Shown piece after piece: positions 48,684 through 64,000 of a stretch of 64,000 bases of DNA. This DNA comes from an uncultured Roseobacter sp. GTDB lineage: Bacteria > Pseudomonadota > Alphaproteobacteria > Rhodobacterales > Rhodobacteraceae. Location of the stretch: assembly GCF_947492555.1 (NCBI RefSeq), contig NZ_CANLNE010000002.1, forward strand, positions 111,001 through 175,000. The letters run 5' to 3'. Both the position numbers and the translations under genes were made by a program. Position 1 is the stretch's first letter. Each line of letters starts with the position of its first letter. The notes beneath the pieces are model-generated. The model saw only the letters and a list, made by a program, of their open reading frames with translations. It searched no databases and was not told where the DNA came from.

Positions 48684-50339
<1,656 letters not shown>

Positions 50340-52587: not shown

Positions 52588-54690
52588 ATGCTTACATCAA
52601 ATGGGCTTCGCCTTGCCGTCGATATTGGCGGGACATTCACCGACACAGTTATGGTGGACGGTCAGGGTACTATTCTTGCCACGGCCAAGACGCCGACAAC
52701 CCCGCCAAACCCGACCCTTGGGGCGCTTGCCGGGACGGAACGGGTGCTTGCCGATACCGGGGCAAACTGGTCAAAGATTCAAGGCTTTATTCACGGGACG
52801 ACCCTGGCCACCAACGCGTTGATTGAAAGACGTGGCGCGGTTGTGGCGACGATCACGACAGCGGGGTTTCGCGACATCCTTGAGATCGCTTATGAGCGGC
52901 GGTTTAGCCAATATGATATCAATCTGGTTAAACCCGACTTGCTGGTCCCGTCTGCGCGTGCCTTCACGATTGCGGGTCGCATGACAGCCAGTGGGCACCA
53001 GATCGAAGCCTTAGATGAGGCGGCCGTTACCGCTTTGGCAAACGACCTGGAGGCCAGCGGTGCGAAGGCGGTCGCCATCTGTCTGATGCACGCCTACGCC
53101 AACCCCGCTCACGAATTGCGCTTGCGGGCGCTTTTGCAAAGGGCCCTGCCGGATCTGGTAATTTCGCTTTCCCACGAGGTCAGCCCCGAGGCGCGTGAAT
53201 TTGACCGGCTTTCGACCACCATCGCGAACGCCTATATACAGCCGTTGATGGCCCGTTATCTGGCGGATTTTCAGGCGCGGTTTTCTGAGAACGGGTTGAC
53301 CTGTCCGATCCTGATGATGACCGCCGGCGGCGGTATGACGACAATAGAAACAGCAGCCCGCTTGCCGATCCGTTTGGTTGAAAGCGGCCCGGCGGGCGGG
53401 GCCATTCTGGCGGCGCGCATCGCCGCAGAAACCGCCGAAGCGGACGTGTTGAGCTTTGACATGGGCGGGACGACGGCCAAGCTGTGCCTGATTGATCAAT
53501 TTCGACCTCAAACCACCCGCAAGTTTGAGATTGCCCGCGCCGAGAGATTCATCAAAGGGTCAGGCATGCCCGTCCGCATCCCCGTCATTGAGATGATCGA
53601 GATCGGCGCAGGTGGCGGGTCAATCGCGCATGTCGATCGGCTGGGTCGGTTGCTGATCGGGCCCGAAAGTGCTGGTGCTGAGCCCGGGCCTGCCGCCTTT
53701 GCCAAGGGCGGCACCTCCCCCACGGTGACAGACGCGGATGTGATTCAAGGGCTCATCGACCCTGATCTGTTTGCCGAAGGGCAACTGAAAATCGACACAA
53801 CCGCAGCCGAGCATGCGCTGGTACAGCATGTCGGTGAACCAATGGACCTGAGCGCCGCCGAAGCGGCCCATGGCATCAGTGAGATCGTGGATGAGAATAT
53901 GGCTGGAGCGGGTCGGATGCACGCAGTCGAATCGGGCAAGGATTTGGCTACTCGGTTGATGATTGCCTTTGGCGGCAACGGCCCGTTGCATGCCACCCGG
54001 GTTGCCAGACGTGCTCAGGTGGAACGCATCCTTATACCACGAGACCCCAGCGTCGGCTCTGCCGTCGGGTTTTTGTTTGCACCGGTGTCTTTTGAAATCA
54101 TCCGGTCCCGCTACAGCACTCTCGACGCGCTAAATCTTGCAGATATCAACGCCTTTTTTGACGATATGTTGACGGAAGCGACAGGCGTGGTGCGGGCCGG
54201 TGTTCCAAGGGGGCCGCTAACAGAGCGCCGCGTGGGTTTCATGCGCTACCAAGGACAAGGTCACGAAGTTGAAATACCGCTGCCAGATCATGAACTGGAG
54301 GCCAAGGATATCCCTGCTCTCACCCGCGCGTTTGAAAAGGAATACAGCCGCCAGTTCAGCCGAGCTGTGCCGGGCATGACAATCGAAATACTCAACTGGG
54401 CTGTTGAGGTGTCTTCTGAGCCGCTTGCTTTGCGACCCATTCCGGAGCCTTCAACTGAGCAGTCCGCAACGCCCATGAGACGCCGAAACATTCTTTGTGA
54501 CGTCACCGGCAAATGGCGGAAGGCGGATATCTACTCCCGCGCCTCACTCCGCGCAGGCGATCACCTTGCAGGGCCTGCTTTGATCGTCGAGCCGCAAACC
54601 ACCACATTTGTCAGCGCTGACTTTTCGGCGCGTGTGGATGGAGGCGGCAACATCTGGCTCAATCGCGAAACGGAGCATAGCGATGCGTAA
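52588..54690 (+). CDS. hyuA: Hydantoinase/oxoprolinase subunit A (HyuA family)
   Basis: A 700-residue ATP-dependent amidohydrolase subunit of the actin-like ATPase fold. The N-terminus holds LAVDIGGTFTDTVMVDGQG, then HGTTLATNALIERRGA. Further marks are SHEVSPEAREFDRLSTTIANAYIQP, the ATP-binding SFDMGGTTAKLCLID and GAGGGSIAHVD, and FGGNGPLHATRVARR. With HyuB it opens cyclic amides such as hydantoins, N-methylhydantoin or 5-oxoproline; some relatives carboxylate ketones. Substrate is not determinable. It leads a six-gene overlapping operon and overlaps hyuB by 8 bp. Confidence 0.9.
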   Translation: MLTSNGLRLAVDIGGTFTDTVMVDGQGTILATAKTPTTPPNPTLGALAGTERVLADTGANWSKIQGFIHGTTLATNALIERRGAVVATITTAGFRDILEIAYERRFSQYDINLVKPDLLVPSARAFTIAGRMTASGHQIEALDEAAVTALANDLEASGAKAVAICLMHAYANPAHELRLRALLQRALPDLVISLSHEVSPEAREFDRLSTTIANAYIQPLMARYLADFQARFSENGLTCPILMMTAGGGMTTIETAARLPIRLVESGPAGGAILAARIAAETAEADVLSFDMGGTTAKLCLIDQFRPQTTRKFEIARAERFIKGSGMPVRIPVIEMIEIGAGGGSIAHVDRLGRLLIGPESAGAEPGPAAFAKGGTSPTVTDADVIQGLIDPDLFAEGQLKIDTTAAEHALVQHVGEPMDLSAAEAAHGISEIVDENMAGAGRMHAVESGKDLATRLMIAFGGNGPLHATRVARRAQVERILIPRDPSVGSAVGFLFAPVSFEIIRSRYSTLDALNLADINAFFDDMLTEATGVVRAGVPRGPLTERRVGFMRYQGQGHEVEIPLPDHELEAKDIPALTRAFEKEYSRQFSRAVPGMTIEILNWAVEVSSEPLALRPIPEPSTEQSATPMRRRNILCDVTGKWRKADIYSRASLRAGDHLAGPALIVEPQTTTFVSADFSARVDGGGNIWLNRETEHSDA

Positions 54691-56332
54691 ACCAAACACC
54701 CGATTGCAGGTCATGTGGAACCGGCTTTTGGCCGTAGTTGAAGAGCAAGGCCAGGCGCTGATCCGCGCTGCTTTCAGTCCCATTGTGCGGGAATGCGGTG
54801 ACATATCCGCAGGCATTTTTGATCTGCAGGGGCGCATGTTGGCCCAGGCCGTCACAGGCACACCAGGGCATATCAACACCATGGCCGAAGCCGTCAAAAC
54901 CCTGCGCGACCGGTTTGAGGTAAAGGATATGAAGCCGGGCGACATCTTTCTGACCAATGACCCTTGGATTGCCTCAGGGCATCTGAACGATTTTCTGTTG
55001 ATGATGCCAGTTTTCCACAACGGAGCGGTTGTTGGCTTTACGTCCTGCACCTCGCATCTTGTCGATTTGGGAGGACTGGGCATGGGGCCGGAGGGGGCGG
55101 ACGTCTACGACGAAGGCTTGTTGATACCGCCCTGCAAATTGATGGATCAGGGTGCACTGAATGCGCTGTTGATGGAGATCATCAAGGCCAACTCCCGCGA
55201 GCCGATTGCAAATGAGGGCGACATTTACGCGCTGATCGCATGCTGTGAAACGGGAGCTGCGCGGCTTGCCGGGATGATGGACGAATTCGGTCTAAACGAT
55301 CTGGACGCGCTGGCCGACTACATCATTGAGATATCCTATCAGGGCACGCTCGACGCCCTTACCGAGCTGCCCAAAGGCACTTGGAACAGTGTTCTGAAGG
55401 TCGATGGGTATGAAAAAGAGATCGACCTGCACGCCGCGCTTACACTTGCAGATGACCATGTGCTGCTTGATTTCAGCGGCACATCCGGACTGTCGAGAAA
55501 AGGCATCAACGTCCCGCTCAATTACGCCACCGCCTATGCGGTGTTTGCGCTGCGCTGCATCATCGGACCCGACATTCCCAACAATGCGGGTTCGCTTGCG
55601 CCGTTTCAGGTCACCGCCCCGACCGATTGCATCCTCAACGCGCAGGCGCCTGCACCCGTGGCGATGCGCCATACGCTGGGGCAAATGACGCCTGATCTTG
55701 TCTATGGGTGCCTGTCGCAGGCCGTGCCGGACAGGGTGCCCGCAGAGGGTGCGTCGTGCATGTATGACCTGCCGCTGCGCCACGTGGCTGAAACCGCCTT
55801 GAACGGTGGTGAGACGTTCGCGCTGGAGCTTGTCTTTAGCGGCGGCACGGGCGCGCGACCAGGTCTTGATGGGCTGTCTGCGACGGCCTTCCCGTCGGGG
55901 GTCTGGGGCTCTCAGATTGAAACCACGGAAGCTGTCGCACCGGTTCTGTTCACACGGCGCGAGCTGAAGCAAGACAGCGGTGGCCCCGGCAGCCACCGCG
56001 GGGGGCTTGGGCAGCACATCGAATTACGCTCAGCGATTGATGAGGATTTCATAGTGTTTCTGTCGGTGGAACGGGTGCTTAACCCCGCTAACGGACGCCA
56101 CGGCGGCATGGCGGGTGCGGCGGGGCGCATTCGGATCGGACATGACGGAGCCGACCTGCCCGGCAAAGGAAAGGTGCGGGTCAACGCGGGCAAGACATTG
56201 GTTTTTGAGACACCCGGTGGCGGTGGGTTTGGCCCGCCTCAGGACCGCAGCGCTGCTGCCGTTCGACGTGACCTCGAGGACGGTTTGATCAGTAGCCAGG
56301 CCGCGCGTGACATCTATGGGGTTGATACATGA
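54683..56332 (+). CDS. hyuB: Hydantoinase/oxoprolinase subunit B (HyuB family)
   Basis: A 549-residue partner of HyuA. Family blocks include VVEEQGQALIRAAFSPIVRECGDISAGIFD, GDIFLTNDPWIASGHLNDFLLMMPVF, the NVPLNYATAYAVFALRC segment and a Gly-rich C-terminus with DSGGPGSHRGGLGQ and FETPGGGGFGPPQDR. It carries the metal site of the amidohydrolase. ATG at 54683 overlaps the hyuA stop by 8 bp and matches the family start, while the longer frame within hyuA is rejected. Confidence 0.9.
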   Translation: MRKPNTRLQVMWNRLLAVVEEQGQALIRAAFSPIVRECGDISAGIFDLQGRMLAQAVTGTPGHINTMAEAVKTLRDRFEVKDMKPGDIFLTNDPWIASGHLNDFLLMMPVFHNGAVVGFTSCTSHLVDLGGLGMGPEGADVYDEGLLIPPCKLMDQGALNALLMEIIKANSREPIANEGDIYALIACCETGAARLAGMMDEFGLNDLDALADYIIEISYQGTLDALTELPKGTWNSVLKVDGYEKEIDLHAALTLADDHVLLDFSGTSGLSRKGINVPLNYATAYAVFALRCIIGPDIPNNAGSLAPFQVTAPTDCILNAQAPAPVAMRHTLGQMTPDLVYGCLSQAVPDRVPAEGASCMYDLPLRHVAETALNGGETFALELVFSGGTGARPGLDGLSATAFPSGVWGSQIETTEAVAPVLFTRRELKQDSGGPGSHRGGLGQHIELRSAIDEDFIVFLSVERVLNPANGRHGGMAGAAGRIRIGHDGADLPGKGKVRVNAGKTLVFETPGGGGFGPPQDRSAAAVRRDLEDGLISSQAARDIYGVDT

Positions 56333-57411
56333 TCGCACCAGTCTCTCATATCGCAGCGCTGTCGCCCTACGCGCTGGCCGACCTGACCGCGCCTGCCGGC
56401 TCGCGCCTGATCTCGCTGTCCCAAAACGAAAGCCTGCGCCCGCCCAGCCCGCATGTGATCAAAGCTGCGGCGCAGGCTATGGAAAGCGCGCAGCTTTATC
56501 CTGATCCCGATTGGGGCGCACTGCGGTCCGCCCTGACCGAACATCACGGTATTCCGGCAGGCGGAATACTGTGTGGCAACGGCTCAATGGAGTTGATTGC
56601 AGGCCTTACACTGGCTTTTGCAGACCCGCAAAACGCGGTTTTGGCGCCCGCACATGCCTATCCGTTTTTCCGAACCGCGGCGCAGCTGGCGCGCGCACGC
56701 TTTGACACCGCACCGGAAACCAACGGCGGCGTGTCTGTTGACGCGCTGCTTGCCGCTGTCCGACCCGACACGCGCATCGTGTTCGTCGCCAATCCGGGCA
56801 ACCCGACGGGGACACGGGTGTCGCGCAACGATTTGCTGCGCCTGCGCGACGGTCTGCGTGGCGATATCCTGTTGGTGATTGATGAGGCCTATGGTGAGTT
56901 TGCCGACCATTTGAACGAGCCGATGTTCGATCTGGTTGCGCGAGGTGATACCGTTGTGCTGCGGACCTTTTCCAAAGCCTATGGGCTTGCGGGCATGCGT
57001 GTGGGATGGGGGCTGTTCCCCGAACAGATCGCCGGGGCCGTGCGCAAGGTGATGAACCCGAACACTGTGTCCGTTGCGGGCCAAGCCGCCGCCTGTGCGG
57101 CACTGAAGGATCACGATTACATGCGCGCGACCTGTCAGGCTACGTCCCAACAGCGGGACCGGCTGGTCATACAATTGCGCGGGGCTGGCCTTGAGGTGGC
57201 GGACAGCTTCACCAACTTTACCCTGATCCGCTTTGCCAGCGCAGACGCCGCAGCCAGTGCAGATGCAAGCCTGCGCGCGCAGGGCGTGTTCCTTCGCGCG
57301 CAGGGCGGCGTCGGGCTGCCAGATTGCCTTAGGATCACGATCGGCTCGGAGGGCGACATGAGTTTTGCGGCATCCCTTTTGACGCGTTGGGCCGAGGAGG
57401 AGATGACATGA
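56329..57411 (+). CDS. HisC-like PLP aminotransferase
   Basis: A 360-residue fold-type I aminotransferase of the histidinol-phosphate group. The PLP Lys is in TFSKAYGLAGMRVGW. Other marks are SLSQNESLRPPSP, NPGNPTGTRVS and the Asp/Tyr site VIDEAYGEFAD. In this operon it more likely transaminates an amino acid released by HyuAB than acts in histidine synthesis. It overlaps hyuB and the next gene by 4 bp each. Confidence 0.88.
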   Translation: MIAPVSHIAALSPYALADLTAPAGSRLISLSQNESLRPPSPHVIKAAAQAMESAQLYPDPDWGALRSALTEHHGIPAGGILCGNGSMELIAGLTLAFADPQNAVLAPAHAYPFFRTAAQLARARFDTAPETNGGVSVDALLAAVRPDTRIVFVANPGNPTGTRVSRNDLLRLRDGLRGDILLVIDEAYGEFADHLNEPMFDLVARGDTVVLRTFSKAYGLAGMRVGWGLFPEQIAGAVRKVMNPNTVSVAGQAAACAALKDHDYMRATCQATSQQRDRLVIQLRGAGLEVADSFTNFTLIRFASADAAASADASLRAQGVFLRAQGGVGLPDCLRITIGSEGDMSFAASLLTRWAEEEMT

Positions 57412-58151
57412 CACAGTCGCGTGGGCGCGCCCGTTTTGGGATCTTGGTCCCCTTCACAAATACCAACCTTGAGCCGGACATGACCCTATTGCGGCCCGAA
57501 GGTGTGTCGCTCCATTTTGCGCGCCTTGGTGGGTACGATGAGGATGAAATTCCGGATGCGGACCAGATGCATGGGTTGGGGGCCTCTGATCTGGGCGAAC
57601 CGCTGCGCCTTTTGCAAGGTGTGAAGCCGGACGTGATCCTTTACGGCTGCACCTCAGCCACGCTCACCCATGGCCCTTCCTTTGATCGCGATCTGGCGCG
57701 CCAGATCAAACAGGACAGTGGCGCAGAAACGGTGACAGCAGCGGGTGCCTTGGTGCATGCTTTACAGAGCTTGGGCATCAAACGGATCGGTTTCGCCTCA
57801 CCCTATGTGGCCGCGATCAACGATTTGGCCGTCGCCTTTCTGTCGCAGGTTGGTATCAAGACTGTGGAGCGGTCAGAGGTTGCCACCGCGCTCGACAATT
57901 ACGGACAGGGTGAACTGGATCCGCAAACCGTTTGTGATCTGGGACTGGCCGCTGATCACCCCGACGCGCACGCCATTGTGATGTCGTGCACGGATATGCG
58001 CAGCGTCGAATGCATAGCGAGGATCGAGGCCAAACTGGGCAAGCCGGTGATCACCTCAAATCAGGCGATGGTGTTTCAGGCGATGCAGCTTGCCGGACTG
58101 CCCGACACCTTGCCGGGCTTCGGCCAATTGCTTGCGGGAGGCCAGCGATGA
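57408..58151 (+). CDS. Asp/Glu racemase / maleate isomerase family protein
   Basis: A 247-residue protein. Two Cys positions typical of the fold are present: GCTSATLTHGPSFD and MSCTDMRSVE. It also has RARFGILVPFTNTNLEPDM at the start and KPVITSNQAMVFQAMQLAG near the end. This pattern suits arylmalonate decarboxylase/maleate-isomerase relatives, which use a Cys pair for racemisation, isomerisation or decarboxylation. ATG at 57408 overlaps the aminotransferase stop (ATGA). Confidence 0.85.
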   Translation: MTQSRGRARFGILVPFTNTNLEPDMTLLRPEGVSLHFARLGGYDEDEIPDADQMHGLGASDLGEPLRLLQGVKPDVILYGCTSATLTHGPSFDRDLARQIKQDSGAETVTAAGALVHALQSLGIKRIGFASPYVAAINDLAVAFLSQVGIKTVERSEVATALDNYGQGELDPQTVCDLGLAADHPDAHAIVMSCTDMRSVECIARIEAKLGKPVITSNQAMVFQAMQLAGLPDTLPGFGQLLAGGQR

Positions 58152-59494
58152 CTTTTGAAAAGATCGCAAATTTCGCCCTTGCGGATAGCGACATGCCGGA
58201 CAGCGCGCTGGAGATGGCGGCGACGCTGCTGATCGACACTATCGGCGTCGCCGCCGGTGCTGCACATATGGAAGCAGGGCGCATCGCGCGCGATCATGCC
58301 TTTGCCTTTCACGGGGCCGGATCGTCGGAACATGCAGCGCATATGATGTTCGATGGGCGGCAAGCGTCCATTCCGGGTGCCGCCTTTGCGACCGCGACCC
58401 AAATTGATAACCTGGATGGCCATGACGGGCTGAATGCAACCAAAGGTCATATCGGCTGCGCCGTCGTGCCTGCGCTGTTTGCCTTTGCCGAAAGCCGCCC
58501 TGACCTGGCAGGTCGAGATGCGCTCGCGGCTTTGGTTATGTCCTATGAAGTTGCGGCCCGCGCAGCCTTTGCCTTGCACAGTTCAGTGTCTGACTACCAC
58601 ACATCCGGTGCATGGAACGCATTGGGTGTGGCTGCGTTAGGATGCCGCCTGCGCTGCGCGAACGCCGGGCAACTGCGCCACGCCTTGGGAATAGCAGAAT
58701 ACCATGGGCCTCGCAGTCAGATGATGCGCGAAATTGCGAACCCGACCATGCTGCATGACGGCTCTGGCATGGGGGCATTGGTCGGGGCCATGGCAACGTT
58801 GATGGCAATGAACGGGTTCACCGGCGCACCTGCAATCACTGTTGAAGGCGAAGACGCATCGGCGCACTGGGCAGATCTGGGCGCGGTCTGGACCGTTGAA
58901 GAGAACTATATCAAACCCTATCCGGTCTGCCGTTGGGCCCATGCGGCACTTGATGGATTGTCTGCATTGATGGGGGAACATGGGTTTACGGCGCAGACGG
59001 TCGCATCCATTCAGGTCAATACCTTTGAGGAGGCCGCAGCGCTGTATGCGGGGCTGCCATCTACGACATCTCAGGCGCAGTATTCGTTGGCCTTTGCTTT
59101 GTCCGCTATGCTGGCACATGGCACAATCGGTCCCGAACACATTGCTGGAACCGGGTTGAGAGACCGAAGTATTGCCGACATCCTGCCGCGCATCTCCGTA
59201 CGGGAAGAAGCGCGGCATTCGGTGCGCTTTCCCGCGGGGCGTTGGTCGGACGTCACGGTGACGCTGACGGACGGACGCCGGCTTGCCTCGGGCGATGTGC
59301 AGGCACGCGGTGGGCCCGAAGACCCAATGGAGCTGCACGAGGTCCAGCGGAAGTTCGAGATCATGACCGCAAGGCTCGGGCCCGAACGCACTGAAGCACT
59401 TTGGGCGATGCGGGATAAACTGCTGTCACCGGACGTGAAATTCGACGCGTTGGCAAAAATCGTTCGCGCGCCCGAGGAGGGACAACATGTCTGA
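58148..59494 (+). CDS. MmgE/PrpD family protein
   Basis: A 448-residue protein with the MmgE/PrpD pattern: LLIDTIGVAAGAA, ATQIDNLDGHDGLNATKGHIGCAVVPALFA, EVAARAAFALH, and ENYIKPYPVCRWAHAALDGL. The family includes 2-methylcitrate dehydratase, cis-aconitate decarboxylase and related dehydratases/decarboxylases. Residues equivalent to the Asp-His pair (NLDGHDG and KGHIG) are present, so it is probably active. Start at 58148 overlaps the racemase-like stop by 4 bp. Confidence 0.88.
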   Translation: MTFEKIANFALADSDMPDSALEMAATLLIDTIGVAAGAAHMEAGRIARDHAFAFHGAGSSEHAAHMMFDGRQASIPGAAFATATQIDNLDGHDGLNATKGHIGCAVVPALFAFAESRPDLAGRDALAALVMSYEVAARAAFALHSSVSDYHTSGAWNALGVAALGCRLRCANAGQLRHALGIAEYHGPRSQMMREIANPTMLHDGSGMGALVGAMATLMAMNGFTGAPAITVEGEDASAHWADLGAVWTVEENYIKPYPVCRWAHAALDGLSALMGEHGFTAQTVASIQVNTFEEAAALYAGLPSTTSQAQYSLAFALSAMLAHGTIGPEHIAGTGLRDRSIADILPRISVREEARHSVRFPAGRWSDVTVTLTDGRRLASGDVQARGGPEDPMELHEVQRKFEIMTARLGPERTEALWAMRDKLLSPDVKFDALAKIVRAPEEGQHV

Positions 59495-60455
59495 CACCCC
59501 GCGCATCATCTTGCACAACGACAGCACCACCGATATGGAACAGCAACTGCTTGATCGCTTTCCAGACGCTGATTTTCGCGTGTGCAACAGTTATGACGGC
59601 CTGCCTTCGTTGATCGATGACTACCGCCCGCATGTCCTGTATTCCGTTCGGTTCGCAGGCACGCCCGGCTTTCCGCGCGCAGCACTCTTTGGACCACAAG
59701 GGCCAGCATGGATCGCTGTTGGCGGTTCTGGAACTGATCATCTTGGGCAATGGGACATGGCCCGGACCACTGTCACCAATTCTGCAGGTGTAGCCGCCAA
59801 TATGATGGCCGAATATGTGTTTGGCGGGTTTCTGCATTTCACCCTGAACGTGATGGGCCTGCAAAGGGACAAGGCTGCAAAAGCATGGAACGCCCGCAAA
59901 GTTGCGCCACTTTCGGGCAAGACACTACTCATTGCTGGTTTGGGTCACACCGGCCGGGCGATTGCAAAACGAGCCAAAGCGTTTGGCATGTACGTTCTTG
60001 GAACCCGGGCCAACCCCAGAGTGATGGAAAATGTCGACGAAGTTCACCCGGCGGATGACTTGGCGATCCTTTTGCCGCGCGCAGACTTTGTTGCAATCGC
60101 GACACCTCTGACACCGGAAACACGCGGCCTCATTGGGAGGCATGAAGTTGCTGCGCTCAAATCTGGTGTGGTTATTGCCGACGTTTCTCGCGGTGGGGTC
60201 GTCGATCAAAGCGCGCTTCTGGACGCACTGAAAGCAGGGCAGATCGCCGGGGCTGCATTGGACGTGTTCGAGGTAGAACCGCTGCCTGCTGATAACGAGC
60301 TATGGACGCTCGACAATGTGATCATCTCTCCCCACTGCTCATCTGTTTACGCTGGCTGGGAAAAGGCTTCTTTCAACCTGTTCCTGGGTAACCTTGCAAG
60401 TTGGAAAGCAGGCGAAGACTTGGTCAACATCGTGAACCCGGCGCGGGGGTACTGA
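59487..60455 (+). CDS. D-isomer-specific 2-hydroxyacid dehydrogenase
   Basis: A 322-residue NAD(P)-dependent dehydrogenase. The cofactor loop is GLGHTGRAIAKRAKAFGM. Catalytic positions follow: Arg in VIADVSRGGVVD, Glu in FEVEPLP and His in IISPHCSSVYAGWE. It would reduce a 2-oxo acid, such as the product of the aminotransferase, or oxidise a D-hydroxy acid. It overlaps the MmgE/PrpD gene by 8 bp and ends the operon. Confidence 0.9.
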   Translation: MSDTPRIILHNDSTTDMEQQLLDRFPDADFRVCNSYDGLPSLIDDYRPHVLYSVRFAGTPGFPRAALFGPQGPAWIAVGGSGTDHLGQWDMARTTVTNSAGVAANMMAEYVFGGFLHFTLNVMGLQRDKAAKAWNARKVAPLSGKTLLIAGLGHTGRAIAKRAKAFGMYVLGTRANPRVMENVDEVHPADDLAILLPRADFVAIATPLTPETRGLIGRHEVAALKSGVVIADVSRGGVVDQSALLDALKAGQIAGAALDVFEVEPLPADNELWTLDNVIISPHCSSVYAGWEKASFNLFLGNLASWKAGEDLVNIVNPARGY

Positions 60456-60778
60456 CCAAACCATCCAAGTGGATGACCATCATTGTGTGCTGCAGATATC
60501 GACGCTGGCGACCGGAACATAGAAGGAAAGATGCATCCACGCGGATTTGGACAGCGCGAGGCAATGCGGTCTTGCCCGTGGTGTTCTCACCAACAATTCC
60601 AGCTAGGTCATCTATCACCAAAGCCTGGTGGCACCCTGTATTCGCGAAACAGGCTCTCTATCAAGAGAATTGCGCCACAAGATATTATCAGACGCACCAC
60701 ATGGAACATCTTCAAAAATGAACTGAAGGTTTAGGAAGATCATCGAAAGAGAGATACGGGAACAGAGGTTTTACTAGG
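60456..60778. other. Gap between the hydantoinase operon and the rRNA operon
   Basis: About 320 bp with short frames only. No tRNA gene is found just after the 5S gene on the minus strand, where many Rhodobacterales operons have tRNA-fMet. No clear terminator hairpin with a T run was seen for either side. Confidence 0.4.
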
Positions 60779-60893
60779 TTTGGCGGTGACTTACTCTCCC
60801 ACGTCTTAAGACGCAGTACCATCAGCGCTACGGCACTTAACGGCTGGGTTCGGGATGGGACCAGGTGTTTTGCTCGTGCTATGACCACCAAAC
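60779..60893 (-). rRNA. rrf: 5S ribosomal RNA
   Basis: The minus strand carries a full 5S rRNA: TTTGGTGGTCATAGCACGAG at the 5' side, CCCATCCCGAACCCAGCCGT in the centre and GAGAGTAAGTCACCGCCAAA at the 3' side, which pairs with the 5' end. Exact ends are within a few bases. Confidence 0.95.
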
Positions 60894-61408
60894 CATGAAA
60901 AACCTCTGTCGTCCAAGTCATGCACTCTAATGTGCTGTGTATGCTTTTGATATCACAAGTAAAAGTCCTGCTTCTACTGGATCAAATCAAGCCTATCGGG
61001 CAATTAGTACCGGTCAACTGAACACATTGCTGTGCTTACATCTCCGGCCTATCGACGAGGTGGTCTACCTCGGCCCTCAGGGATACCTTGTTTTGAGGGG
61101 GGCTTCCCGCTTAGATGCCTTCAGCGGTTATCCTTTCCGATCATAGCTACCCTGCACTGCTGCTGGCGCAACAACAGGTCCACCAGTGGATCGTTCACCC
61201 CGGTCCTCTCGTACTAGGGGCAACTCCTCTCAAGTATCCTACACCCACGGAAGATAGGGACCGAACTGTCTCACGACGTTCTAAACCCAGCTCACGTACC
61301 TCTTTAAACGGCGAACAGCCGTACCCTTGGGACCTGCTCCAGCCCCAGGATGAGATGAGCCGACATCGAGGTGCCAAACACTGCCGTCGATATGGACTCT
61401 TGGGCAGT

Positions 61409-61462
<54 letters not shown>

Positions 61463-61600
61463 TCGGGACCACCGGATCACTATGGCCGTCTTTCGACTCT
61501 GCTCGACTTGTCAGTCTCGCAGTCAGGCTGGCTTCTGCCATTGCACTCAACGAGCGATTTCCGACCGCTCTGAGCCAACCTTCGCGCGCCTCCGTTACGC

Positions 61601-61632
<32 letters not shown>

Positions 61633-61890
61633 ACCACACAGGGTCCCGGATCCGGATAACGGACCGCGGTTAGACATCAAGCAGAACAAGGGTGGTATCT
61701 CAAGGGAGGCTCCACGCAGACTGGCGTCCACGCTTCAAAGCCCACCACCTATCCTGCACATGTTCGGCCTAATGCCAGTGTGAAGTTGTAGTAAAGGTGC
61801 ACGGGGTCTTTCCGTCTAACCGCGGGAAACCTGCATCTTGACAGGTAATTCAATTTCGCTGAGTCTATGTTGGAGACAGCGGGGAAGTCG

Positions 61891-61973
<83 letters not shown>

Positions 61974-62708
61974 TGGGCTTCAATTCAAGGCTCTCACCTC
62001 TCCTTTTAACCTTCAGGCACCGGGCAGGCGTCAGACCCTATACGTCGTCTTGCGACTTCGCAGAGCCCTGTGTTTTTAATAAACAGTCGCCACCCCCTGG
62101 TTTGTGCCCCCAGCCAATACTTGCGTAGAAACTGGGCCTCCTTCTCGCGAACTTACGGAGGTATTTTGCCGAGTTCCTTCAACATAGTTCTCTCAAGCGC
62201 CTTGGTATTCTCTACCAGTCCACCTGTGTCGGTTTAGGGTACGATCTAGCGATGGAGCTATTTCCAGGAACCTCTAAGCAGCCCATTCAATCCAATAAGG
62301 ATGAACTACCCTCGAGATCCGTCACTTCCATCTGGCCCAGGAATATTAACCTGGTTCCCATCGACTACGCCTTTCGGCCTCGCCTTAGGGGTCGGCTTAC
62401 CCTGCTCAGATTAGCTTTAAGCAGGAACCCTTGGACTTTCGGCGACAGTGTCTCTCACACTGTTTGTCGCTACTCATGTCATCATTCTCACTAGTGATCT
62501 CTCCACCGGATCGCTCACGCGCCGGCTTCACAGAAAACCTCTCTCCTCCAACACGGGCAAGCCCGCTAAGGAGGAATGAGATTATGTCACACTACGCTCT
62601 GCTACCATGCGATAAACGCATCCTAAGCTTCGGCTCATGGCTTGAGCCCCGTTACATCTTCGCCGCAGGACAACTTATTTAGACCAGTGAGCTGTTACGC
62701 TATCTTTA

Positions 62709-62739
<31 letters not shown>

Positions 62740-63240
62740 TTGTTTTGGTCGTCCCACCTGCTTTCCCACTTAGCCATGAATTAGGGGCCTTAGCTGTAGG
62801 TCAGGGTTGTTTCCCTCTCCACGACGGACGTTAGCATTCGCCGTGTGTCTGCCATCTAGTACTCCTCGGTATTCGGAGTTTGGTTAGGATCAGTAAGCCT
62901 GTGGGGCCCCATTACCCATCCAGTGCTCTACCCCCGAGGGTATTCGGATGACGCTCTACCTAAATAGATTTCGCAGAGAACCAGCTATCTCCGAGTTTGA
63001 TTGGCCTTTCACCCCTAGGCACAGCTCATCCCGATCCTTTTCAACGGATGTGGGTTCGGTCCTCCAGTACGTGTTACCGTACCTTCAACCTGGCCATGCC
63101 TAGATCACTCGGTTTCGGGTCTGATCCCACGAACTCGACGCCCTATTAAGACTCGCTTTCGCTGCGCCTACACCTATCGGCTTAAGCTTGCTCGTGAGAC
63201 CAAGTCGATGACCCATTATACAAAAGGTACGCCGTCACAA

Positions 63241-63260
63241 GACTGGAGATCAATTTGGAT
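63241..63260. repeat. 3'-side arm of the IVS inverted repeat (RNA sense)
   Basis: These 20 bases are complementary to 63769-63788 with one mismatch. In the transcript they form a long stem closing the intervening sequence, a typical RNase III substrate. Confidence 0.85.
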
Positions 63261-63265
63261 CTTAT

Positions 63266-63754
63266 TCAGAAATCTAGAAAATATCTTACCGCAAGCGTTT
63301 CACTGCCCGGGTTTACATCTTCGATATCTGCGTTCGATTTATGGTCGATCGCAACTGAGATGCGACTGGTATCTGTTAGCCTGTAGCCAACACCAACCAG
63401 CGATCTAAACTGCAGATTGCCACCCAACTCACTACCGCCAGACCCCGCATCGTAGTAACCGGGCATGAAACTGCCCTCTACGAACCACGGCCCCTGGCCA
63501 ATAGACCAAATTCCTGACACCCCCACACCGATGAAAACGTCACCGTCTCCATCGATCTGACCGGCTCCTGCCAATGAATACGCTGAACGCTCTCCCGAAA
63601 AGAACGGGTTCGCGTGGTATTCGATGATCAGTGCACCGGATTGAGTGTCTGTTTGGTCTAGAACATCATCGACGCCGAGACCAACGACAAAGTCGCCAGC
63701 GACAGCATGTGATGTTGCAAGTGTTAACGTCAGTATGGAAGCGAATATTTTCAT
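63266..63754 (-). CDS. PagL-like lipid A 3-O-deacylase encoded in the 23S IVS
   Basis: A 162-residue protein with a Sec signal (MKIFASILTLTLATSHAVA, cleavage near residue 19) and an outer-membrane beta-barrel pattern of alternating strands ending in aromatic YFLDF. The C-terminal part reads IDHKSNADIEDVNPGSETLAV, with His138, Ser140 and Glu152. This spacing equals the catalytic His126-Ser128-Glu140 of Pseudomonas aeruginosa PagL, an outer-membrane enzyme that removes the 3-position acyl chain of lipid A. FRSLVGVGYR also fits the family. ATG at 63754 is chosen: GGAAG precedes it and the signal peptide starts there. A TTG start at 63790 lies in the rRNA stem. The gene is in the sense of the 23S transcript. 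Confidence 0.88.
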   Translation of the reverse strand: MKIFASILTLTLATSHAVAGDFVVGLGVDDVLDQTDTQSGALIIEYHANPFFSGERSAYSLAGAGQIDGDGDVFIGVGVSGIWSIGQGPWFVEGSFMPGYYDAGSGGSELGGNLQFRSLVGVGYRLTDTSRISVAIDHKSNADIEDVNPGSETLAVRYFLDF

Positions 63755-63768
63755 AAGCTTCCAATGAC

Positions 63769-63788
63769 ATCCAAATTGAACTCCAGTC
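63769..63788. repeat. 5'-side arm of the IVS inverted repeat (RNA sense)
   Basis: Pairs with 63241-63260 (19 of 20 positions). It ends 14 bp before the pagL-like start codon, so the stem and the ribosome-binding region are close together. Confidence 0.85.
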
Positions 63789-64000
63789 AAGCTCCGACTG
63801 ATTGTAGGCGTTCGGTTTCAGGTACTGTTTCACTCCCCTCGTCGGGGTGCTTTTCACCTTTCCCTCACGGTACTGGTTCACTATCGGTCAGTAAGGAGTA
63901 CTTAGCCTTCGAAGGTGGTCCTCCGATCTTCAGACAGAATTTCACGTGTTCCGCCCTACTTAATACGTCCAATCATGCTTCTTATACGGGACTATCACCC

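Follow-up and report, generated by a model that had tools for sequence, protein, structure and literature searches.

We examined a 64,000-nucleotide stretch of DNA (the window) from an uncultured Roseobacter sp. (contig NZ_CANLNE010000002.1, positions 111,001 to 175,000), which ends inside a 23S ribosomal RNA (rRNA) gene. This gene is split at helix 25 by an intervening sequence that holds an intact open reading frame (ORF) for a predicted PagL lipid A deacylase. Both lie on the minus strand, and the ORF reads sense relative to the 23S rRNA. The features of the locus are:

60983..64000, minus strand: 23S rRNA gene (Rfam RF02541, 2325 bits), split at helix 25 and extending past the window end
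60778..60892, minus strand: 5S rRNA gene (Rfam RF00001), downstream of the 23S gene
63238..63792, minus strand: intervening sequence in helix 25, in place of the compact helix's apex loop (by comparison with compact sites of relatives and E. coli numbering)
63266..63754, minus strand: PagL ORF, 162 amino acids plus stop (ORF call, Pfam, structure model)
63769..63788, minus strand: 5' side of the stem that closes the insert (8 bp and 11 bp, separated by a 1x1 mismatch at 63780)
63241..63260, minus strand: 3' side of this stem, with the mismatch at 63249
63758..63762, minus strand: GGAAG, a weak Shine-Dalgarno-like motif on the stem's loop side (from the sequence; −3.9 kcal/mol)
63299..63343, minus strand: codons 138–152 with putative catalytic His138, Ser140 and Glu152 (alignment to 2ERV)

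When a compact relative was aligned to the E. coli 23S, the insertion point fell at the hairpin apex, at E. coli positions ~540–553; we take helix 25 to be E. coli positions 533–560. An earlier note, made from the bare sequence, had read the locus as a helix 25 split by a 162-codon sense-strand ORF with a complete start and stop. The compact relatives and the E. coli numbering confirmed the split, and the ORF indeed begins with ATG and ends with TGA.

The note had also assigned the ORF to PagL. Its product matched PagL (PF09411) in Pfam with 60.1 bits (cut-off 23), and all eight further embedded or relocated proteins that were scored reached 53–66 bits. Structure prediction returned the PagL fold: a hydrophobic N-terminal helix (residues 2–13) followed by an eight-stranded barrel resembling PagL 2ERV. 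Alignment to 2ERV recovered the H138-x-S140...E152 set at the spacing of PagL, as the note had claimed. We take the His, Ser and Glu of this motif to be the PagL catalytic residues. They are kept in 28/28 embedded sequences, and the His-to-Glu spacing is 14 in 27 of them and 15 in L155. Could the protein be another small outer-membrane barrel that is not an enzyme? OmpA, NspA and OmpX-like barrels also fit the predicted fold, and NCBIfam gave the window protein no name. However, PagL ranked best by Pfam, PDB sequence profile, Foldseek and VIA-align, and the catalytic set is kept, so that we hold a non-enzymatic barrel to be very improbable. Sequence and model together identify the window protein as a predicted PagL lipid A deacylase.

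Pfam yielded PagL only, with no endonuclease or transposase domain in the window protein. An S23p-type insert was rejected on this ground and because this genome has no PF05635 match; PF05635 matched in 4/394 family genomes, with no 23S sequence at those four loci. A group I or group II intron with a homing endonuclease was rejected as well, since no intron family reached its gathering score and no endonuclease Pfam domain was found.

We searched 19 genomes of the same genus. PagL lay between two 23S flanks in 10 of them (G000, G004–G010, G014, G016). In five, helix 25 was compact, the flank matches lying 14 bases apart, and PagL was elsewhere (G003, G011, G013, G017, G018); the remaining four gave no PagL match (G001, G002, G012, G015), the helix-25 site being unreadable there. 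Each of the 15 PagL-bearing genomes had exactly one PagL match, inside or outside the 23S gene. The same arrangement was present in four named Roseobacter records, including R. insulae and R. sp. WL0113; a fifth and more distant record, L010, had PagL without 23S.

Across the family, 107/394 genomes had a PagL-profile match. The 23S 3' flank, sought in the 106 besides G000 (80 + 26), was found in 42/80 and 14/26. In 18 genomes outside the genus the PagL match shared contig and strand with the 23S flank and ended ≤150 bases from it. Nine flank-bearing genomes (G186, G155, G211, G234, G237, G262, G280, G031, G317) had no PagL adjoining the flank, and helix 25 was unread in them. The junction word CAGTCTTGTGACGGCGTACCTTTTG was present in 21/394 family genomes: G000, these 18 out-of-genus genomes, G329 (PagL C-terminus beside a mask) and G128 (masked). 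PagL was found at 20/20 readable CAGTCTTGTGACGGCGTACCTTTTG junctions, and at least 19 other genera carry the arrangement. The CAGTCTTGTGACGGCGTACCTTTTG count is an underestimate because the word misses one stem type (A', see below). Among 385 class-wide genomes, with one mismatch allowed, only G000 matched. In total the ORF-bearing insert was found in 29 genomes, with both 23S flanks visible in 26; only the 3' side was seen in G043, G406 and G329, the other side being cut off by a contig end or masked.

Embedded inserts measured 557–752 nt between anchors. The compact helix-25 span was 56–75 nt in the 46 family genomes read (29 + 17). Twenty-nine of these had a PagL-profile match elsewhere, a few of those matches being weak; helix 25 was also compact in the five same-genus genomes, of which G018 is counted among the 29 too. 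The other 17 came from a control on 80 genomes without PagL, 20 of which gave a match (G105 and G128 masked, G130 partial), and in which helix 25 was compact at 17/17 readable sites. No long helix-25 insert free of PagL was seen among the sites read, the nine flank-bearing and two masked genomes not being judgeable.

The window's draft assembly has a single 23S gene, within a 1.2-Mb contig, which would suit an assembly chimera or a dead second rRNA operon. However, the insert is also carried by G016, a single-contig genome with one 23S match; by all three 23S copies found in G373, identical to each other; and by both copies found in G319, again mutually identical. The 23S flanks of the insert are ~97–100% identical among same-genus genomes. 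Because the same arrangement occurs in 29 separate genomes, chance and an assembly chimera are excluded; we reject the chimera or dead operon as refuted by this recurrence and give it practically no weight.

Four protein records (P0004, P0006, P0014, P0015) begin with ~34–42 residues translated mostly from 23S rRNA, because gene callers extended the ORF upstream. PagL within 23S is thus an annotation blind spot, some public gene calls running the ORF into the rRNA.

Embedded sequences occur at two places far apart on the PagL tree: A and A', with a signal-peptide-like start, and B, whose proteins mostly begin MADGTFAVL...NHCG...CLG. The median ratio of nonsynonymous to synonymous substitution rates (dN/dS) was 0.11 in group A (7 sequences), 0.16 in A' (3) and 0.19 in group B (16), far below 1, although these values are only approximate because dS is near saturation. 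The intact ORF is under purifying selection. We also observed that the Glu of the triad is replaced by Asn or Asp in 29/55 motif-bearing standalone sequences versus 0/28 embedded ones, kinship being uncorrected. G199 has an embedded group-B PagL (L157) and a second, standalone PagL (L094) with Asn instead of Glu. The group-B PagL (L152–L168, L030, L035) share an odd N-terminus, mostly of the form given above, with conserved cysteines.

Folding showed that the 26 complete inserts share one closing stem. It consists of the helix-25 base, 8 bp, a 1x1 mismatch and then ~9–14 bp with occasional further mismatches. The 22 distinct arm pairs have 89.9% of their cells paired, and 12/22 positions vary on both sides. 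None of 2000 shuffles matched the pairing and 5 matched the count of positions with two-sided change; slid control arms paired at 19–43%. When four inserts were folded in full, the foot of the stem had a pairing probability of 1.0. The closing stem covaries. A local hairpin, CAGTC...GACTG (63783–63801), lies at the 5' foot of the insert and competes with the long stem; it is a possible folding switch and, as a terminator, within chance expectation. Being on the loop side, the GGAAG would stay with the excised RNA. The Shine-Dalgarno energy was −3.9 kcal/mol in 7/7 group-A sequences, −5.5 kcal/mol in 3/3 A' sequences and −5.7 kcal/mol or lower in 15/16 group-B sequences, the remaining one being at −3.3.

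The insert may instead act mainly as RNA, as a large folded expansion or a ribosome cleavage device, with the ORF kept for a secondary reason. Besides the covarying stem, this would account for the fold of the whole insert with short flanks (z −9.5, 0/20 shuffles as low) and of its coding part, which we tested on the last 480 coding bases (L040, L166, L185, L101 and duplicates excluded). The median dinucleotide-shuffle z was −2.9 in 26 embedded versus −0.28 in 54 standalone sequences. Against synonymous-codon shuffles the medians were −2.50 and −0.17 (p 1.3e-9, kinship uncorrected), and none of 30 such shuffles was as low in 15/26 embedded versus 3/54 standalone sequences. In the nearest contrast, embedded A' sequences had z values of −4.6, −2.5 and −3.0, whereas related standalone ones had −0.6, 0.2, 1.8 and 1.4. 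However, some embedded group-A sequences fold little beyond expectation (L015, −1.0; L017, −1.2), no lower than the relocated copy L018 (−1.8). After correction for relatedness, 3 independent pairs remained on supported branches, of which ~2 agreed and almost none opposed. Since there are only three such pairs, the extra RNA folding of the embedded coding sequence is suggestive, and not proved, beyond relatedness. Moreover, every readable long insert holds PagL and never another sequence, and selection at the protein level is strong. We therefore consider a mainly RNA role rather improbable.

We asked how the insert came to its present distribution using quick trees (G192, G335 and G329 are absent from the 23S tree). 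On the PagL tree (86 sequences, 28 embedded) the embedded label needs 10 changes, at least 3 of them forced. On the 23S tree (74 genomes) the embedded or compact state changes 16 times, and supported branches force at least 11 of these changes. Inheritance always in place was rejected, the state changes on both trees being too many. The stem foot is near-identical in both PagL subfamilies and, by inspection, the A' stem is intermediate between A and B. We looked for 23S remnants around 61 non-embedded PagL sequences (56 distinct loci); five passed a loose cut and only L018, from G018, was convincing:

L242:3146-3652: relocated PagL of G018, with decayed 23S remnants on both sides

This sole PagL match of G018 lies away from the rRNA operon as an intact 162-codon ORF, and the genome's own 23S is compact. 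The gene is flanked by remnants of both 23S flanks, the upstream one 81% identical over 66 bases. We read it as a copy that probably exited the 23S gene and retained its protein while the rRNA part decayed. The long ORF nearest to it (L242:548-2212, minus strand) looks amidohydrolase-like by eye. Recombination via the conserved flanking 23S sequence, together with PagL relocation, would be the simplest explanation of the repeated gain. PagL genes ~54% identical to that of the window occur on the Sulfitobacter plasmids NZ_CP139710, NZ_CP139709, NZ_CP139727 and NZ_CP116424, annotated as acyloxyacyl hydrolase; they are a possible source of mobile copies.

How does this arrangement compare with known systems? 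The protein resembles PagL lipid A 3-O-deacylase (PF09411; PDB 2ERV) in predicted fold, catalytic set and length. To our knowledge, the PagL genes described so far are free-standing, each with a promoter of its own. Insertion at helix 25 of 23S has been described before (PMC2672173, PMC6191907, PMC8708148). RNase III-excised 23S inserts (Salmonella helices 25 and 45; alphaproteobacteria; R. sphaeroides) likewise have a long stem at a 23S helix tip, and such stems are RNase III substrates (PMC4990558, PMC8708148, PMC2672173). A review gives 100–200 nt for 23S intervening sequences (PMC8708148). These inserts are mostly geneless, whereas those described here span 557–752 nt and hold a conserved enzyme gene. 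The earlier note, which describes helix-25 inserts as usually without a gene or with an S23-type protein, needs correcting in that PagL inserts recur at helix 25 across the family. S23p-type inserts (PF05635; Leptospira, Coxiella, Xanthomonas) also hold a sense ORF, placed in the loop of a 23S insert that RNase III processes (PMC4990558). However, S23p is an unrelated helical protein without assigned function, whereas PagL is a predicted outer-membrane barrel under selection; and the Shine-Dalgarno is cut away in the Coxiella insert (PMC4990558), whereas the PagL start region is on the loop side. Protein genes also lie within 23S in rRNA introns with homing endonucleases (candidate phyla radiation (CPR) bacteria and others; PMC11270868) and in transposon inserts (Deinococcus, Nostoc; PMC2672173). 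Their cargo serves the element's own mobility, whereas the PagL insert has no intron family, endonuclease or transposase domain. By analogy, the arrangement would work like an RNase III-excised 23S insert, with a cargo that differs in kind. No paper among the literature matches listed, in part only the best of up to 14,145, is on PagL or a lipid A deacylase inside 23S, most subscription journals being outside coverage; two listed papers in which the relevant words occur have unrelated titles.

The insert could also be a hitchhiker that spreads through the conserved 23S flanks, with PagL as accessory cargo that is little made there or not at all. The alternation of embedded and compact states on the 23S tree, the single site common to two distant PagL subfamilies and the weak Shine-Dalgarno of group A all suit such an element, and the Coxiella S23p insert offers a precedent (PMC4990558). 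However, the PagL ORF is under purifying selection, its catalytic residues are kept in all 28 embedded sequences, it stayed intact in the G018 copy that exited 23S, and the 15 same-genus genomes each keep exactly one PagL, in or out of 23S. Spread and function are, moreover, compatible. We consider mere hitchhiking unlikely.

Taken together, these results lead us to favor, as likely, an rRNA intervening sequence with an intact predicted PagL gene, sense in helix 25 of 23S, whose enzyme is made from the rRNA transcript. Because the PagL gene lies inside an rRNA gene, production of the enzyme would likely keep pace with that of ribosomes. PagL would be transcribed from the rRNA promoter along with every 23S. 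RNase III would then cut the ~20-bp stem, giving a two-piece 23S rRNA and a ~520-nt RNA that keeps the start region, and ribosomes would translate the PagL message before or after excision. A signal peptide would direct PagL to the outer membrane, PagL would cleave the 3-linked acyl chain from lipid A, and its output would follow ribosome synthesis. The earlier note's interpretation is supported in that the sequence-based checks it named came out in its favor: a PF09411 match, a predicted PagL fold, dN/dS far below 1, the insert in many other genomes and no chimera. We infer expression from the rRNA promoter and the coupling of lipid A remodelling to ribosome synthesis. A consensus scan of 63200–64000 found no sigma-70-like promoter, versus 0.9 expected in shuffles, which fits such expression but is no proof of it.

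Several observations weigh against this reading. The ribosome-binding site noted earlier is present as GGAAG but is weak, its −3.9 kcal/mol being equalled by 24% of 150 random 16-mers from the window, and its start region is in part base-paired (0.37 unpaired). Because the coding RNA folds unusually tightly, translation could be hindered. Group-B proteins, embedded and standalone alike, lack a classical signal peptide by eye, and in the embedded L155 the Glu is shifted one residue further. The number of pair types in the stem was reached by 800/2000 shuffles, so this measure is within chance, and the dN/dS values carry the saturation noted above. In Coxiella, the excised insert RNA is quickly degraded and the ORF product is probably not made (PMC4990558).

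We lean slightly towards a broader proposal, in which the 23S gene of Rhodobacteraceae would serve as an expression chassis for a cellular enzyme. Each pre-rRNA would yield one ribosome and one PagL message, which would hard-wire lipid A remodelling to ribosome output; the coding sequence would be doubly encoded, specifying both a protein and a compact fold that expands the rRNA; and the site would have taken up two distant PagL subfamilies, with loading or unloading many times over.

Elsewhere in the window, genes for hydantoinase A, an aminotransferase, an arylmalonate decarboxylase-like protein and a 2-hydroxyacid dehydrogenase (52588–60455, plus strand) converge on the rRNA operon. One further RNA gene lies ~10 kb from the 5S gene:

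50263-50339, minus strand: tRNA-Met (cat)

As far as we found, the protein genes described within 23S either promote mobility or lack a known role, and the role of 23S fragmentation itself has been called unclear (PMC8708148, PMC6191907). If our reading is true, the PagL insert would give one type of 23S fragmentation a purpose, and one gene would be shaped by protein and rRNA folding together. A conserved, selected envelope enzyme in 23S would then make membrane remodelling follow ribosome synthesis with no regulator in between.
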